From a virus: a stretch of DNA of 22,021 bases. The notes beneath the pieces are model-generated. The model searched no databases. It was not told the origin of the DNA and was given only the letters and a program-made list of their open reading frames with translations. The number at the start of each line of letters is the position of its first letter. The first letter of the stretch is position 1. Shown here in pieces: positions 539-19,018 of the stretch. Position numbers and translations under genes: made by a program. The DNA lies in IMG/VR virus record IMGVR_UViG_3300025840_004270, positions 1 to 22,021 of that record; one strand, written 5' to 3'.

Positions 539-911
539 CGCCACTTGGGTCGTTGTCATCATCATAATCTGGATCTGAAACTTCAATATCACTAGGACCA
601 GTGCCATCTTGAGTCATATCATCACCAGGAGGTACTGCTAGTGAGTTTTCTAAATAGTGTTTTGCACCACTGAGATATGTTCCTGCTTTGACAATTTTTG
701 CTTGCCACCAATGTGGAAAATCTGAATCAGGTAATTCATCTAGCATCTTGAACAGTTCAACACAGTAAGTACCCATTTGGAATAACTCTCTGCGAAGCAT
801 GTCTCTTTCGTTATCAACGTGGCCAACTGCCATTTTAACATTGTTGTTGTCACCGGCATCTTTTTCGTTTACAATACCTGCTAGTTGCTGTAATCTATCT
901 ATTTCGTTCAT
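531..911 (-). CDS. Acidic phage protein with N-terminal LAGI motif
   Basis: A 126-aa protein of unknown function. Its first 13 residues (MNEIDRLQQLAGI) form a short amphipathic segment that matches segments in the upstream gene. The middle is probably helical (around residues 30-85, with HWW at about 67-69). The last 35 residues are low-complexity and rich in Asp, Pro and Gly, with a DDDND run. The start ATG shares its A with the stop codon of the upstream gene (TAATG), so translation is very likely coupled. It is the last gene of the leftward late block and probably encodes a virion or head-assembly component, but no family was recognised. Confidence 0.75.
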   Translation of the reverse strand: MNEIDRLQQLAGIVNEKDAGDNNNVKMAVGHVDNERDMLRRELFQMGTYCVELFKMLDELPDSDFPHWWQAKIVKAGTYLSGAKHYLENSLAVPPGDDMTQDGTGPSDIEVSDPDYDDDNDPSGVS

Positions 912-3343
912 TATATACCTGCCAATTTTCTAAGTTCAAGCATTGCTTCTTCGATGGCTTTGTCTACTGTACCGTCGATTGCTTCTTCCATCTCAGCATC
1001 TTCTGGTTCATAATCATATTCACCGTGGTCTTTCCAATCTGCATTATCAACTAATTGTTCGATGTATCCTTGGATAACTTCATCTCTGTCATCGTCCATG
1101 TGCAAACTATGATCTCTAGCATACTCGCTCATTTCTTGATCAAGTTCTTCTATGCTCATGCCTATTTCTTGTGCTAATGCTTCTTCACCACCTTGACCAT
1201 AAGCATCCATTAATTCATTGTATGCTTCTTCCTCACGACTTTGTTCTGCACGTGGATCAAAACTTTCAAACATGCTTGGATCTAAATTCAGTGAATCAAA
1301 GTTTTTTATAACCCATTTAACAGCACGTTCTTTGTCCATGCCACTGAGTCCTTTGATATGATCTACTACACCTAATTTACCAAAGCCATTACATCCTTTA
1401 CATGTTGCATCACCACGTATGTTTAATGCTGTTGGTCCCTCATCACTGTCATTGCAAAGTGGGCAGTCTTCTAATCCTGCAATTGGATCAAAGTCTTGTA
1501 ACATGCTTGGGTCCATGCCTTCTTCCATTTCTGGTTCATCAAATGGGCTTTCCCAATCATTCATTACTGCATGTAATACATCTATACCAAACATTAATTC
1601 TTGAGCTTTTGCTTCAATGTCTTGTTCACTGGCACCATCGTTCTTCATTTTTGCAAGAATTTCAAAATCATCTTGTGCTTGATCTCTGACTGCACCTTCC
1701 GCAACATGATTTGGTGTACCACAGTGAGGACATGCTTTTGCACTTACTGGATGTTCTTTATCACAGTTAGGACATTTGATTTCACTCATGTCTGGTTCTT
1801 CGTCTGCCAATTCATTAATCTCAATGCCAGCAAGTTTTTTTAACTCAGACATTGCAGATCTTCTTTTTGTAAAGTTACTCATCTTAAAGTCTCTATACTT
1901 GTCAATTTCTGCTTGACGTTGTTGAGCCTTTAATTTTTGACTTAACTGTTTTTGTTGCATGACATTGATGCCATTACGTTTCATCATGTCTACAAATACA
2001 GTGTGCATTTCTTCTGCACTACTAAATGGCTTATCACCATATGCACTTCTTTCGGCTTGTGCTTCTTGTGACCATAAACTAAAGTTAGCATCGTATCCTG
2101 CTTCTTTGTCGTAATTTTTCCAGTCCCAGGATCTTTCATTGATTTCTGCTTCTTCTATACCATAGTCTTCGCGTACATCTGATAAGTCAACACTCTCAAA
2201 TTCTTTTTCGTAATCTGCTTTTTCTTGATCTGCTTTTGGATCTTTTACCAAGTCCATATTTTTAAGAGCGTTTGAAACTAATTGGATAACAAATTTTTTG
2301 TCGTCTTCAGGTAGACTCATAACAGAACCTACTTCATCAATTTTTTGGATAACTGCACTTAGTCTATCACTAACTGCTAATCCATTATCGTCATTTTTAA
2401 GACGTGCATTGATTTCACCTAACAATAGTGCAGGTGCTTTAAGCAATTCCATCATAAAATGTTCTTTCTTTGCTACAGGATCATTTGGGTCCTCATCTGG
2501 TCCCATTCTGTTAGCAACACTTTTCTTAATAGTGCTGTGGAACATTTCTGGATCTGCTGGGAAAAATTCTACTTTAGAAGGATCACTGGCGGCGGCTTTT
2601 GCTGGTCTTTCAGCGGCCGCTTTAGCATCTTTTGGACTTATGGATTGATAGTCATCAAAATTAACTGGTGCTTCGTCTAACCCTGCTAAATGTTTTAGTC
2701 TATTAATATCTTCGCTCATTTTATTATCCAATATTTTATTCTGTAATAAGTCAAATATACCCTGATCGAATTTGCCAAGATAGTTTCTCATGACTTCTTT
2801 GCGGTGTTCTGTGTCTACTGCATGTACAAAAGCATTTCTAAATGCACTAGCACTTGCAACTTCACCATTACGCTCTACTGTAGGTGCAGTTGCTAAGTAA
2901 CCTCTGCTTTTAAGAGGCACAGCCTCACCGTCCTTAATACTATTTATCATTTGCATCCATTTTGGGCCACTGCCATTCAGTTTCATATCGAGGCCAGTTT
3001 CAGGATCTACATTATTGAAATCAAAACGAGGATCGCCCTGCATGTCTTTTTCACCAACTATCAATATAAGTTGTGTTGAATCAGCATCAAAGTATTGTGC
3101 GTAGTCGTCACCGTTGTAAGGACGTTTTACATTTAGGATTCTCTCCGGCGGTATGTTGTGAATTTCAGACATGATTGCTTTCTTTTCAGCAAAATTAAAT
3201 GGAGACTTTGGAAAGTCTACTTTATCTGATGTTGCAATATAAACATCTGCGTTAGGATATTGCGTCTGTAGGCCTGAGAACACTGCCGCATGATGCGGTA
3301 GCATTGGCTGAAATCGTCCTGGATAAACAACTACTTGTTTCAT
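911..3343 (-). CDS. Modular protein: nucleotidyltransferase-like domain, zinc fingers, three LAG(I/L) motifs
   Basis: 810 aa from the ATG at 3343; a GTG two codons upstream is possible but sits closer to the promoter box. Residues 1-200 resemble the HxGH cytidylyl/nicotinamide-nucleotide adenylyltransferase fold: GRFQP at 9-13 and SASAFR at 164-169 in place of the ISSTxxR signature. The usual HxGH reads L-P-H-H, so only the last His is kept and activity is uncertain. Three further modules follow. Each is marked by an Mx(E)LxxLAG(I/L) motif, at about 209-222, 498-507 and the extreme C-terminus (801-810). A zinc ribbon uses C524, C527, C538 and C541. A DnaJ-like finger uses C627, C630, C648 and C651. 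The rest is acidic and helical. It is expressed from a late octamer 6 bases before the ATG, and its stop overlaps the next start. Probably virion-associated. Confidence 0.8.
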   Translation of the reverse strand: MKQVVVYPGRFQPMLPHHAAVFSGLQTQYPNADVYIATSDKVDFPKSPFNFAEKKAIMSEIHNIPPERILNVKRPYNGDDYAQYFDADSTQLILIVGEKDMQGDPRFDFNNVDPETGLDMKLNGSGPKWMQMINSIKDGEAVPLKSRGYLATAPTVERNGEVASASAFRNAFVHAVDTEHRKEVMRNYLGKFDQGIFDLLQNKILDNKMSEDINRLKHLAGLDEAPVNFDDYQSISPKDAKAAAERPAKAAASDPSKVEFFPADPEMFHSTIKKSVANRMGPDEDPNDPVAKKEHFMMELLKAPALLLGEINARLKNDDNGLAVSDRLSAVIQKIDEVGSVMSLPEDDKKFVIQLVSNALKNMDLVKDPKADQEKADYEKEFESVDLSDVREDYGIEEAEINERSWDWKNYDKEAGYDANFSLWSQEAQAERSAYGDKPFSSAEEMHTVFVDMMKRNGINVMQQKQLSQKLKAQQRQAEIDKYRDFKMSNFTKRRSAMSELKKLAGIEINELADEEPDMSEIKCPNCDKEHPVSAKACPHCGTPNHVAEGAVRDQAQDDFEILAKMKNDGASEQDIEAKAQELMFGIDVLHAVMNDWESPFDEPEMEEGMDPSMLQDFDPIAGLEDCPLCNDSDEGPTALNIRGDATCKGCNGFGKLGVVDHIKGLSGMDKERAVKWVIKNFDSLNLDPSMFESFDPRAEQSREEEAYNELMDAYGQGGEEALAQEIGMSIEELDQEMSEYARDHSLHMDDDRDEVIQGYIEQLVDNADWKDHGEYDYEPEDAEMEEAIDGTVDKAIEEAMLELRKLAGI

Positions 3344-3348
3344 ATACA

Positions 3349-3906
3349 CTATTTATCATGATCAAGTGATGTGAGCCACATGCTCATTTCTCCAATTTCA
3401 ATGTGTTGTGGTTGGTTAAGTGCCCATAAAATCATGTCTGCACATTCTTTGGCAGACAGCATAGGCACTGTATCATGTTTATCTGCAGTCATGTCTGTTT
3501 TTACATAACCCGGATTGATATTGATAATGCGACATCGTTTGTCAGGATTAAACATGCCATCGTATGCAACTTTAGCCAATTGCTTTTTAGTTGCACTGTA
3601 ACTTGGATTGCCGCTGATGCCGTATTTGCTTCTGCTGTTTATGTTTATGATTGTTTTGCTTTTATCACTTATCCACATGTCAAACACACCTTGGAATAAA
3701 TCTACCTGATAAAAGTCTGCCCAAGCATTATTAATAAACACATCACAGTTTTTGACATTGTGTAAAATAGCATTGCGATCTTCTTGATCACTAATGTCAT
3801 AACTGTTTCTTCTGCTGAAACCAATACATGTATGACCTTTGTAAATCAGTGTGTCATATAATGCCTTGCCAATGCCGCTAGTGTGTCCTGTTATTCCTAT
3901 TTTCAT
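3349..3906 (-). CDS. Short-chain dehydrogenase/reductase (SDR)
   Basis: A 185-aa NAD(P)-dependent oxidoreductase of the Rossmann-fold SDR family. It has the cofactor loop TGHTSGIG at 6-13, NNAWA at 59-63 in place of the usual NNAG, a catalytic Ser around 92, YSATK with Y103 and K107 as the catalytic pair, and PGYVKTD at 132-138. It is shorter than the usual 250 aa because the C-terminal substrate lid is reduced, so the substrate cannot be guessed. Its start lies 29 bases inside the upstream oxygenase-like gene, with AGGA 7 bases before the ATG. Its last codons (Asp-Lys-stop, GATAAATAG) also contain the late promoter of the next gene. A sugar-nucleotide or glycan substrate is possible given the glycosyltransferases nearby. 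Confidence 0.88.
   Translation of the reverse strand: MKIGITGHTSGIGKALYDTLIYKGHTCIGFSRRNSYDISDQEDRNAILHNVKNCDVFINNAWADFYQVDLFQGVFDMWISDKSKTIININSRSKYGISGNPSYSATKKQLAKVAYDGMFNPDKRCRIININPGYVKTDMTADKHDTVPMLSAKECADMILWALNQPQHIEIGEMSMWLTSLDHDK
3350..3357 (-). promoter_or_regulatory. T4-type late promoter octamer GATAAATA
   Basis: Minus strand, formed by the last codons of the SDR gene. It is followed by GTGTAT and then the ATG at 3343, with no Shine-Dalgarno. Nearly identical to the copy at 7007-7014. Confidence 0.7.
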
Positions 3907-11112: not shown

Positions 11113-11415
11113 ATGTCATGGAATCATAGAGTAGTTAAACACGAATCAGAAGATGGAGTATTTTATTCCATCCATGAAGTCTATTATGAAGATGATGTGC
11201 CTGTTGCATTCACCGAAAGACCTGTGCCTGCAATGGGAGAATCACATGAAGATCTCATGAAAGATATGATTAATCAAATGAGTGCCTTGACAAAACCTGT
11301 ATTAGATGCTAAAATGTTTGATAAGAAAATGTCAACTAATGACGCAGAAAAATACGTAACTAACACAGCCATAGATATACTAAAGAAATGTTCAAACAAG
11401 ACATCCAAAGAATAG
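11113..11415 (+). CDS. Small conserved protein (MSWNHRV family)
   Basis: 100 aa. It starts MSWNHRVVKH and contains YSIHEVYYEDDVPVAFTERPV. I recall this pattern from small bacterial and marine phage proteins of unknown function (W-N-x-R-V...I-H-E-V-Y-Y...). The first 60 residues look like a beta-rich domain and the rest is helical. It has the strongest consensus promoter in the window right at its ATG and is first in the rightward operon. Its end overlaps the UV endonuclease gene by 28 bases. An early, host-facing role is possible from position only. Confidence 0.75.
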   Translation: MSWNHRVVKHESEDGVFYSIHEVYYEDDVPVAFTERPVPAMGESHEDLMKDMINQMSALTKPVLDAKMFDKKMSTNDAEKYVTNTAIDILKKCSNKTSKE

Positions 11416-12434
11416 GTTTTTGCTGTAAGTATCTAGACCCAGATCAAACTCAAAAGCCAAAAATTCTAAAAGAAATACAACAAAACTTTACAGAAAAAGG
11501 CACTACTGTTGCTTGGTGTAATAGACAAGACAAAGTTGTAGCAGAAAGTAAATTGCTTGAAGTGGTAACACACAACATGCAAAGTGCATACAATCTTGTT
11601 GAGTATGTAAGTACACTCCCAGATAATCGTAAAATGGTTCGACTCGGTAGTAATCAGATACCTATGGCTACTGAACCCACTTGGCGTTACTTGTGGGAAG
11701 ACAGTAATAACCGTGAAGAATTACGCAAAGGCTTTGCACGTATAGGCGAACTTGCTCGTGCTAAAGATGTGCGTCTCAGTTTCCATCCTGGACAGTTCTG
11801 TGTACTTGCAAGTGATAAGCCAGATGTAGTTGAACGTAGCATTGACGAATTTGAATATCATGCAAACATGGCACGTTGGATGGGCTATGGCAAGCAGTTT
11901 CAAGACTTCAAGATCAACGTACACATATCAGGTAGACAAGGTGCAGAAGGTATTATCAAAGTACTTCCTAAATTGTCACCCGAGGCACTAAATACTATTA
12001 CTATTGAGAATGACGAAATGTGCTGGGGACTTGATGAGAGTCTTAAATTGGTAGATCACCTAGCATTAGTGTTAGACATACACCATCACTGGATTAGAGA
12101 TGAAGAGTACATACAACCCGAGGATGACAGAGTTAAAGCAGTTATCGACAGTTGGCGTGGAGTTCGCCCTGCTATGCATTATAGTTACAGTCGTGACGAG
12201 CATTTACCTGCTGGTGACAATACCCATGTTGGTTTGCATGATATCGGCGGATTACTTGAAGAGGGTCATAAGAAACAAAAACTGAGAGCCCACTCAGACT
12301 ACTATCCTAACCATGATGCTAACGAATGGGCACTGAGCTTCTGGCCACAATTCGACATTCAATGTGAGGCTAAAGCCAAGAATTTGGCTAGTGAGCAACT
12401 GTATTTGCAGAGCATTGAATATGGAAAAAATTAA
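11388..12434 (+). CDS. uvsE: UV-damage endonuclease (UvdE/UvsE family)
   Basis: 348 aa, about the full length of the family. These TIM-barrel, metal-dependent enzymes nick DNA 5' of UV photoproducts and start repair. Visible landmarks in order: RIGFCCKYL (8-16), RLGSNQ (85-90), SFHPGQF (131-137), NVHISG (177-182), IENDE (206-210), DIHHHW (230-235), MHYS (263-266), AHSDYY (301-306) and CEAKAK (327-332). They supply the His/Glu/Asp metal ligands expected for the family. The start overlaps the preceding gene by 28 bases, and the next gene begins 14 bases before its stop, so it is part of a coupled early operon. T4 uses the unrelated DenV for the same problem. Sunlit-water infection would explain keeping it. 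Confidence 0.9.
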   Translation: MFKQDIQRIGFCCKYLDPDQTQKPKILKEIQQNFTEKGTTVAWCNRQDKVVAESKLLEVVTHNMQSAYNLVEYVSTLPDNRKMVRLGSNQIPMATEPTWRYLWEDSNNREELRKGFARIGELARAKDVRLSFHPGQFCVLASDKPDVVERSIDEFEYHANMARWMGYGKQFQDFKINVHISGRQGAEGIIKVLPKLSPEALNTITIENDEMCWGLDESLKLVDHLALVLDIHHHWIRDEEYIQPEDDRVKAVIDSWRGVRPAMHYSYSRDEHLPAGDNTHVGLHDIGGLLEEGHKKQKLRAHSDYYPNHDANEWALSFWPQFDIQCEAKAKNLASEQLYLQSIEYGKN

Positions 12435-15244: not shown

Positions 15245-15538
15245 ATGTTATTAGAAAAGCCAATTAAACAAGGAAGTACTATATCTATTAAAGTTACAAG
15301 CGGTGAAGAAATTATTGCTTGTTATGAAGATGACACAGATATTAACCTTGTTGTTAGTAAGCCAGCAACAATCAGTGCCACACCAGATGGCAAAATGGGC
15401 ATTATTCCATGGATGATGACTAGCAGAGCTGAAAAGTTTTATATAAATAAAAATACGGTTGTTGCGTATGTAGCAACAGAAGAAGAAATTAGCAAAGCAT
15501 ACTTACAGAGTACTACAAACATTACACTAGCAAAATAG
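15245..15538 (+). CDS. Sm-like (LSm fold) small phage protein
   Basis: 97 aa. Residues 1-60 have the look of an Sm/LSm beta-barrel: P-I-K-Q-G-S-T-I-S-I-K-V-T-S-G-E-E-I-I-A-C-Y-E (about 6-28), a strand with VSKPATIS, and a PWMMTS turn (about 55-60), then NKNTVVAYVATEE. I recall proteins of this form in marine T4-like phages. Sm-like proteins bind RNA, often A/U-rich; RNA regulation here is inference, and a purely structural role is possible. It has its own sigma70 promoter and is followed 18 bases later by the endolysin with a strong Shine-Dalgarno, so they may be co-transcribed. Confidence 0.65.
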   Translation: MLLEKPIKQGSTISIKVTSGEEIIACYEDDTDINLVVSKPATISATPDGKMGIIPWMMTSRAEKFYINKNTVVAYVATEEEISKAYLQSTTNITLAK

Positions 15539-17188: not shown

Positions 17189-18340
17189 TTGATATTTGCA
17201 CAACCTACAAAAATTCAAAAACAGGTATTAGGTGAGGTAGCATCTAATTATATCTTGTGGCCTAAATTTGATGCAGTTGGCACAACCTTAATTATTCGCA
17301 TCAGCAATCAATGGGCCCACATTTCAACAGAAGATGTTTGGGTTGATTTTCCTAGTAAGCACAATACCGAAGACTATTCACAAATCAAACAGATTGTTGT
17401 TGTGTGGAATACATTTGAAAACTGTGTTACTACCAATGCTTCAATGATTTGGTTCAAACAAGAGTTGATTAAACAACATCCAAACTTTAGCAATATACCA
17501 TGTAATTTTTTGTGTTGTTCATCAATTGAAATAAACCCTTCTCCGCCAGGTTGCCCAAACAATATAAAAAATGACAACTTACATTTTGTAGATACATTTG
17601 AACTGTCAACTAAACTGCTTTATGATCTTTGGCCGAATTGGCATCATAAAGTATCTTGGCATCCATACACTAAGAAAATTCTATTTTTACCTGGTAAACT
17701 GAGACCACATAGATATCTAGTTCTCAAAGGTTTACTTAATTATTTCCCAGAAAACATTACGTTCACGTTGAATAAACAACTGGTTGCAAATTATGGAAAA
17801 ATTGAAATACCAATAGAAGAGTGGCTCAACGAAACAGCCAGGTTGTATGATGGCTCTGGAATTGATTATCGTGAAGTTAGAGATTTCATGATAGAGCATG
17901 AAACTGATCCTATTGATACAGCATTATTACGTATCAACGACTACACTCAATTGATTAGCAAACAATTTTTAGAAACAACATCTATATCAGTAATTGCAGA
18001 AACCCATCCAAAAACAAATTTTATTACTGAAAAAACTTATGCATGTATTGTTGCAGGAAGACCATTTGTTCAATATGAAGACTTCCCAAATAGGCAGTTG
18101 GAATCTAGAGGTTATCAAATGTTTTACAAAGGCAATAACATGCATAGATTCTTAGAGGATTTTATTATCAATCCAAATGTTAAAGAAGTACAAGACATCA
18201 TAAAACACAACATTGATGTATTGAATACAAATGTAAACAATGCACACAAAAAAATATCAAACATTTTTCCAGAATGGAACGATCTTGACTCTCAAAAACA
18301 AGTTGATATGCTGACCACATTTCTCTCAATTTTAGATTGA
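17189..18340 (+). CDS. Glycosyltransferase-like protein (R-P-H-R / TEK family), copy 3
   Basis: 383 aa using a TTG start directly after the nuclease stop (TAATTG); CAGGAA lies about 10 bases upstream. The nearest in-frame ATG would remove about 85 residues. It carries G-K-L-R-P-H-R (169-175), then a segment with IAETHPKTNFITEKTYACIVAG (TEK at 280-282; shown to mark position) and R-P-F-V-Q, then L-E-S-R-G-Y. The same landmarks appear in the gene at 7006 and partly in that at 12421. The block resembles GT-B transferases of the fucosyltransferase/exostosin type. The N-terminal 150 residues are unlike the other copies. Its stop codon lies inside the -35 box of the QueD promoter. Confidence 0.6.
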   Translation: MIFAQPTKIQKQVLGEVASNYILWPKFDAVGTTLIIRISNQWAHISTEDVWVDFPSKHNTEDYSQIKQIVVVWNTFENCVTTNASMIWFKQELIKQHPNFSNIPCNFLCCSSIEINPSPPGCPNNIKNDNLHFVDTFELSTKLLYDLWPNWHHKVSWHPYTKKILFLPGKLRPHRYLVLKGLLNYFPENITFTLNKQLVANYGKIEIPIEEWLNETARLYDGSGIDYREVRDFMIEHETDPIDTALLRINDYTQLISKQFLETTSISVIAETHPKTNFITEKTYACIVAGRPFVQYEDFPNRQLESRGYQMFYKGNNMHRFLEDFIINPNVKEVQDIIKHNIDVLNTNVNNAHKKISNIFPEWNDLDSQKQVDMLTTFLSILD

Positions 18341-18364
18341 CAAAGCCTAAATAGAGTGTATAAT
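18337..18364 (+). promoter_or_regulatory. Sigma70-type promoter TTGACA-16-TATAAT
   Basis: Perfect -35 (18337-18342, overlapping the upstream stop codon) and perfect -10 (18359-18364) with a 16-base spacer. It precedes the QueD gene by 31 bases. Confidence 0.8.
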
Positions 18365-18395
18365 AATTTTATTATTTCTACATTGAGGCATGCAC

Positions 18396-18887
18396 ATGAC
18401 AAAAAGATTTTATTCAGGTAAGACTTATGCACACAACACTGGGCATAGTTGCGCCTTTAGACAATGGCGAGCAGATAGTCATTGCAATTTAATCCATGGT
18501 TACGCCTTACAGTTTGAATTCGTCTTTGGCGGAAACGAACTTGATGAACGTAACTGGATAGTGGACTTTGGGGGACTGAAGCCACTTAAAGAGTGGTTGA
18601 AGTATATGTTCGATCACACTTATTTGGTAGCCGAAGATGATCCTGAAATGGAAACTGTTTTAATGTTAGCAGACAAAAAACTGATTGATGTTAGACAAGT
18701 TACAGCAACAGGTTGTGAACGGTTTGCTGAAATGGCATTTGATAAAGCAGAAGAAATTGTAAGAGAACTTACAAATGGAAGATGCTGGGTACAACGTGTA
18801 ACAGTAAGAGAGCATGAAGCAAATAGTGCTACTGTTGAACTTGCTGATACTCAACGTATTACATATTCAGTGCCAAACGAACTATAA
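18396..18887 (+). CDS. queD: QueD-like 6-carboxytetrahydropterin / 6-pyruvoyl-tetrahydropterin synthase
   Basis: 163 aa from the ATG at 18396, chosen because GAGG lies 7 bases before it; the ATG at 18390 is only one base from that site. QueD converts dihydroneopterin triphosphate to carboxytetrahydropterin in the preQ0/queuosine pathway, which some phages use to modify their DNA. Visible: AHNTGHSC (H17), SHCNLIHGY with C30 as candidate catalytic Cys and H34, VDFGGLK (56-62), FDHTYL with D73-H74, and REHEANSATVE. The usual HxH zinc pair reads H34-G-Y36, so one zinc ligand is replaced by Tyr. I recall the same change in cyanophage homologues, so it may be a phage subfamily with altered chemistry. 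Other Que genes are not in this window. Confidence 0.85.
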   Translation: MTKRFYSGKTYAHNTGHSCAFRQWRADSHCNLIHGYALQFEFVFGGNELDERNWIVDFGGLKPLKEWLKYMFDHTYLVAEDDPEMETVLMLADKKLIDVRQVTATGCERFAEMAFDKAEEIVRELTNGRCWVQRVTVREHEANSATVELADTQRITYSVPNEL

Positions 18888-19018
18888 GGAGATAGGCGTC
18901 ACTGTTTGCCTACTGACGAGTAATAACAGTGCTAATATATAAGACTATACGAGAGTTTAGAACGTAGACGGCTTTCCTCACTGACGAGTGGGGGCCTCTA
19001 TCTTTAACAAGGTATTTA
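18888..19018 (+). ncRNA. Structured non-coding segment with twin GACG-loop hairpins
   Basis: 131 bases between QueD and the next gene. Hairpin A: CACTGTT (18900-18906) pairs with AACAGTG (18925-18931), with an inner stem TACT/AGTA closing loop GACG (18915-18918). Hairpin B: CCTCACT (18976-18982) pairs with AGTGGGG (18987-18993) around the same GACG loop, extended by GGC (18970-18972)/GCC (18994-18996). AGATAG (18890-18895) pairs with CTATCT (18998-19003) and encloses everything. The 10-mer ACTGACGAGT occurs twice, at 18912-18921 and 18980-18989. Alternatively TAGGC (18893-18897)/GCCTA (18908-18912) can form with CACTGTT/AACAGTG as an H-type pseudoknot. Hairpin B and the following TCTATCTTT could also act as a terminator. 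AAGG 7-8 bases before 19019 is the next gene's ribosome site. Confidence 0.55.

Follow-up and report, generated by a model that had tools for sequence, protein, structure and literature searches.

In an IMG/VR record of 22 kb from an uncultured phage, the segment immediately downstream of queD is, as judged from comparison of related loci, one member of a conserved family of structured RNAs. The family numbers about 22 distinct sequences from IMG/VR phages and is not in Rfam. The segment, referred to here as the GACG RNA, occupies 18894..19000 on the + strand of the window (the whole stretch of DNA analysed, 22,021 nucleotides) and is composed of a pseudoknot core, a linker and a terminal hairpin; the model CM R1 matches it at 18890-19003 with 107 bits. 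All members belong to a single related group of uncultured marine phages. The RNA is almost certainly real, structured and uncatalogued, as the earlier note on this DNA had supposed from stems that differ while their pairing and tip are kept, a view now borne out by covariation and by the CM search. The elements of the locus are as follows.

18337..18364, + strand: sigma-70 type promoter upstream of queD, TTGACA-16-TATAAT, 12/12 consensus matches
18390..18887, + strand: queD, 6-pyruvoyl tetrahydropterin synthase family (PF01242, E 1.2e-17; phrog_2389)
18894..18897, + strand: pseudoknot stem 1 (P1), 5' strand AGGC, pairs with 18908-18911
18900..18906, + strand: pseudoknot stem 2 (S2), 5' strand CACTGTT, pairs with 18925-18931
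18908..18911, + strand: P1, 3' strand GCCT, pairs with 18894-18897
18912..18921, + strand: hairpin P3 in pseudoknot loop 3, GACG loop at 18915-18918, supported by stem covariation
18925..18931, + strand: S2, 3' strand AACAGTG, pairs with 18900-18906
18932..18964, + strand: AU-rich linker, mostly unpaired, ending in the semi-conserved AGTTTAGAACG (alignments A1 and A2)
18965..19000, + strand: terminal hairpin P4, GACG loop at 18983-18986, fold of -16.3 kcal/mol
18965-18968/18997-19000, + strand: P4 outer stem, TAGA/TCTA (TAGT/ACTA in the relative L002)
18970-18972/18994-18996, + strand: P4 pairing GGC/GCC
18976-18982/18987-18993, + strand: P4 inner stem, 119/120 cells paired in 20 members

Relatives were collected from IMG/VR by way of the downstream protein, a DNA pattern and QueD, and their post-queD stretches resemble that of the window, with differing stems. 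CM R1 was built from 8 close members and run over 100 loci; its E-values, which are to be taken as rough, are strong for the non-seed members L016 (5e-18), L045 (6e-12), L225 (4e-11) and L043 (2e-8) and range from 3e-5 to 8e-3 for the distant members L202, L017, L252, L233, L012, L010, L011 and L030. Another member, L284, was found by a strict pattern and is matched by CM R1 at E 2.8e-17. When viral contigs were scanned with a degenerate 16-base pattern, most matches were due to chance and only a few were real members (e.g., L082). Each contig has one copy, at the post-queD locus, with only weak, chance-level scores elsewhere.

Rfam contains no counterpart of the GACG RNA at accepted thresholds. 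The window has no match in Rfam 15 at the gathering cut-off, in agreement with the earlier assignment to no known class; the same database yields only tRNAs in 20 related loci, and permissive scans of the window, L043, L002 and L010 give only sub-threshold matches. The DUF2815 RNA (RF03084) was considered and set aside, as it scores 16.2 bits (E 1.4) against a cut-off of 41.2 bits and is not recovered in relatives. A blastn search of cultured phages found no copy of the GACG RNA, nor did a scan of 84,980 species genomes of bacteria and archaea with a strict pattern; tblastn detected only distant relatives of QueD and of the coil protein, and a literature search found no description of this RNA. 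The same queD-RNA locus is carried by two large contigs, IMGVR_UViG_3300024228_000554 (L021; 339,794 bases) and that of L036 (216,820 bases), and given that these are of jumbo-phage size, the window may be a jumbo phage fragment.

The fold is best documented in the core. Sixteen members were aligned by hand: of the P1 cells 62/63 are paired, of the S2 cells 104/105 and of the P3 stem cells 45/45, and compensatory double changes are present in 13 of the 14 core pairs, including all three pairs of P3. A further count of the core gives 218/220 paired cells. The stems are thus realized by very different letters: AGGC/GCCT, GAGC/GCTC and TGGT/ACCA for P1; CACTGTT/AACAGTG, TGCTGTT/AACAGCA and TATAGTG/CACTATA for S2; ACT/AGT, GAC/GTC, GGC/GCC and GTT/AAC for P3. 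Among eight ungapped rows, 98.2% of cells are paired compared with 85.6% in shuffles (0/500 reach 98.2%), and sliding the partners lowers the fraction to 25-59%; eight pairs are changed on both sides in the true register. Loop 1 has 2 nt across the 7-bp S2, loop 2 has 1 nt, and P3 lies within loop 3, so that two crossing helices, each with covariation, are joined by loops whose lengths permit coaxial stacking. Since this stem order and these loop sizes are those of a standard H-type pseudoknot, the pseudoknot and the first hairpin coexist. The earlier note had seen the pseudoknot and rightly reported its presence, but it is the conserved core of the fold in relatives rather than the alternative structure it was taken for. 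A closing helix AGATAG/CTATCT, also proposed there, occurs in the window and is absent in relatives; its 3' bases form the outer stem of P4. Folding energy alone would have missed the pseudoknot, the single-sequence fold of the window segment being unremarkable (z = -0.99). That value is what could be said for a mere terminator combined with a chance repeat, which had been named as the outcome that would overturn the proposal; with pairing conserved in homologous regions and an independent CM search recovering the RNA, this explanation is refuted and has a negligible probability. The proposed check, covariation across homologous post-queD regions, came out in favour of the RNA, with covarying stems and a constant GACG tip.

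Exact copies of ACTGACGAGT occur only at 18912-18921 and 18980-18989 in the 22 kb, both strands considered, and each tops a hairpin, as had been described for two hairpins with differing stems and a common tip. The constancy of that tip holds for its GACG part and not for the full ten bases. GACG forms the P3 loop in 22/22 distinct sequences and the P4 loop in 21/22, the exception being GTCG in L284, where the C-G step is kept. Outside these loops and one G-C pair of P1, nearly all positions vary, and this near-total variation around invariant loops marks the loops as functional points. Several members have a P3 stem of just 2 pairs and still keep GACG, which suggests that the loop is supported by a contact. 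GACG is otherwise not enriched among the tetraloop hairpins of these loci. With regard to strand, the core and P4 together contain 19 G-U and no A-C appositions, which places the RNA on the + strand and excludes an antisense-strand RNA. Two further candidates were rejected: a hammerhead-like core, as there are only CUGACGA-like letters without the catalytic partner sequences, and a C/D-box-like RNA, with RTGATGA from the linker and CTGA from the tips as its boxes, as CTGA is unconserved and GACG alone is kept.

Most relatives, like the window, have a perfect sigma-70 promoter ahead of queD. This gene is the first of a transcription unit that ends in the GACG RNA, whose start is in most loci only a few bases past the queD stop. 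In L043, L045, L225, L251 and L252, one or more tRNA genes stand between queD and the RNA. Taken together, the promoter and the gene order indicate a unit that reads promoter, queD, optional tRNAs, RNA and terminator. P4 doubles as a predicted intrinsic terminator in many relatives: a clear T-run follows it in L010-L012, L015, L016, L017, L023, L082, L252 and L284, L233 has a T-rich tail, and the run is weak or absent in L002, L014, L019, L020, L026, L030 and the window, whose tail is weak.

The gene that follows the RNA is convergent in 19 of 23 loci, where it directly adjoins the end of P4; it is co-directional only in the window, L002, L025 and L010. Hence, the position just before a gene start, as first described, is true of the window and a few other contigs and fails elsewhere. 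The same arrangement bears on the proposal that the segment is a cis-regulator, or a riboswitch or leader, controlling the downstream membrane/coiled-coil gene. In the window and L002, the gene start does lie about 16-20 nt past the RNA; with the next gene on the opposite strand in 19 of 23 loci, however, a leader function for it is precluded, tRNAs intervene between queD and the RNA in the five contigs named above, and relatives of the coil gene exist without the GACG RNA. This explanation is therefore highly improbable.

The small-RNA reading fits best among the options originally listed. An early transcript that starts at the promoter and runs through queD, and through tRNAs in some phages, would have the structured RNA at its 3' end, and the RNA would be cut from, or end, this transcript and act as a separate molecule; the tRNAs between queD and the RNA in some phages point this way, as their processing would release the RNA. 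Within this molecule, the two GACG tetraloops may, with less certainty, serve as docking points: kissing would use the self-complementary C-G step of the loops and form two C:G pairs. The GACG tetraloop is established as a minimal kissing loop, in which two C:G pairs form and flanking adenines stack, by NMR of a gammaretroviral hairpin (PDB 1F5U), and kissing by GACG has also been shown for the gammaretroviral SL1 and SL2 hairpins, which stand in tandem (PMC7357161; review PMC516450). In cis, P3 might kiss P4 within one molecule and lock the pseudoknot to the terminal hairpin; in trans, contact between two molecules might produce a homodimer. Of the possible uses of the folded RNA or of the dimer, a scaffold for a host or phage factor, or a decoy for one, would be likeliest. 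A loop-loop contact, intra- or intermolecular, fits RNAs that have kept exactly two GACG hairpins while evolving freely elsewhere, and a stand-alone small RNA with such docking tips, loop-loop kissing being the leading mechanism, is our tentative preference. The narrower picture, in which a phage small RNA on a pseudoknot scaffold forms homodimers or closes itself into a ring by kissing of its two GACG tetraloops, a minimal contact of two base pairs known so far from the dimerisation of retroviral genomes, seems unlikely, if still worth stating. Kissing of GACG in cis with a CGTC further upstream, which in the window is part of GGCGTC, was rejected, as this motif is unconserved (GCTTC in L002, GGCGTAA in L020).

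Several explanations compete with kissing. An invariant loop cannot covary, so that covariation is silent on kissing, and a protein that recognises GACG explains the conservation equally well. Accordingly, a phage or host protein may bind the GACG-capped hairpins as twin sites, the RNA serving as a decoy, sponge or assembly scaffold in the logic of CsrB. Two hairpins with a constant loop and varying stems, an AU-rich linker ahead of a terminator-like hairpin, and an Sm-like ORF within the same window, which is a candidate partner, agree with this; no known protein with a preference for GACG loops was identified, though, each RNA offers just two sites, and the Sm-like match is below the cut-off. 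Twin protein sites are thus possible yet somewhat unlikely, and we would place them after kissing, itself no firm choice. The ORF in question (15245-15538, + strand, 97 aa) matches phrog_527 at E 7e-12 and, weakly, the Sm-like PF16243 at E 0.035, and it may encode a phage LSm/Hfq-like RNA chaperone.

A purely cis-acting role is harder to reconcile with the loci. In the 3' UTR of queD or queD-tRNA transcripts, the segment would end transcription and block 3' exonucleases, without any function in trans, and this agrees with an RNA that is always last in its unit, starts near the queD stop in most loci and is followed in many members by a T-run. On the other hand, the sister phages L244 and L247 use plain terminators without a pseudoknot or identical GACG loops, several members have no T-run, and where tRNAs lie between, processing by RNase P/Z would part the RNA from the queD mRNA; such a role is accordingly judged improbable. 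Still lower in rank is a regulatory small RNA that would act by base pairing, its linker or its GACG loops annealing to host or phage mRNAs: a structured 5' part, an AU-rich single strand and a terminator are indeed the layout of trans-acting sRNAs, but the linker is conserved only loosely and a four-base loop makes a weak seed, which leaves little room for this option.

Among known RNA systems, the GACG kissing tetraloops of retroviruses (gammaretroviral SL-C/SL-D, that is, SL1/SL2, and the maedi-visna dimer site) share with the phage RNA the GACG caps, the tandem pair and the constant loop, and hairpins capped as in a retroviral-type kissing dimer are found here in 22/22 and 21/22 loops. The retroviral loops belong to a genomic RNA packaging context in which no pseudoknot core is described, and the likeness is drawn without a claim of homology, dimerisation of the phage RNA being a prediction. 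The guanidine-II riboswitch (mini-ykkC) likewise has two small hairpins with identical loops, which are proposed to kiss, joined by a flexible linker; its loop is ACGR, in contrast to a GACG closed by any pair. This class was rejected, given that the base after ACG is free in the phage RNA (A, G, T in L015, C in L012), which has no Rfam match and is not in a gene leader, the following gene being mostly convergent. The preQ1-II type riboswitch is an H-type pseudoknot whose third loop carries an additional hairpin. The GACG RNA has the same layout, with a queuosine-pathway gene nearby, but it lies downstream of queD, finds no match to this class in Rfam and differs in sequence and loop sizes, and the assignment was dismissed. 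The RNA of type III toxin-antitoxin systems (ToxI) is a small H-type pseudoknot as well; the GACG RNA is without tandem repeats, and no toxin endoribonuclease gene was recognised adjoining it. GOLLD and ROOL are phage-associated ornate RNAs that form homo-oligomers with kissing loops (PMC12286853). Like the GACG RNA, they are phage-encoded structured RNAs near tRNAs, yet they are hundreds of bases larger and show no sequence relation to it.

Other queD loci of these phages carry further RNA-like segments. One, delimited by CCCGAAAACAGTAGGG ... GTAGTATGTCCTACCC, has no Rfam match and follows queD in L212 (2993-3100), L235 (2984-3100) and L237 (2987-3100); in L212, it is directly upstream of the GACG RNA. 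Another is a conserved hairpin-rich segment just past queD in L203, L225 and L240 and in L211, L220 and L252, with the layout GAGTGTAACTTTT-hairpin-TGTTTACTGCACT or AGTCTGATTTTT-hairpin-TTTGTACAGACT; at some of these loci, the next feature is a tRNA-like stretch, uncalled by ARAGORN, whose apparent acceptor stem is GAGGTGC/GCACCTC, and tRNAs come after it. A pseudoknot-like variant in L218 (2987-3110) and L232 (2993-3110) has a covarying stem, TAATTGC/GCAATTA versus AGTTACT/AGTAACT, and a long-range GGCACC/GGTGCC pairing. In addition, a short variant without the pseudoknot is present after queD in L226, L227, L241, L246, L253, L317 and L318, consisting of a similar linker, AGTTTAGAATG, and one terminal hairpin. 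Its terminal loop is the palindrome GATATC in five of seven distinct sequences, GATAAC in L317 and shorter in L318. Given the latter two, these palindromic loops were downgraded as a proof of dimerisation in sister RNAs, and they lend kissing weak backing. Elsewhere in the window, a phage-encoded UvdE-type UV damage endonuclease is found at 11388-12434 on the + strand (PF03851, E 1.7e-38), and an 812-aa protein at 911-3349 on the - strand begins like a cytidyltransferase (phrog_395, E 2.4e-6) and contains zinc-ribbon motifs (PF13248 and PF13240, below cut-off).

In these phages, the region 3' of queD thus appears to be an RNA-rich locus, harbouring tRNAs and further conserved RNA-like segments, to which a well-supported RNA family absent from Rfam is now added. 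Its fold is a hairpin-bearing pseudoknot followed by a terminal hairpin, and the two GACG tips are almost the sole fixed parts. If the tips kiss, they would be among the smallest natural RNA-RNA docking contacts, shown outside retroviruses, and the GACG RNA would provide a small system for studies of RNA dimerisation.
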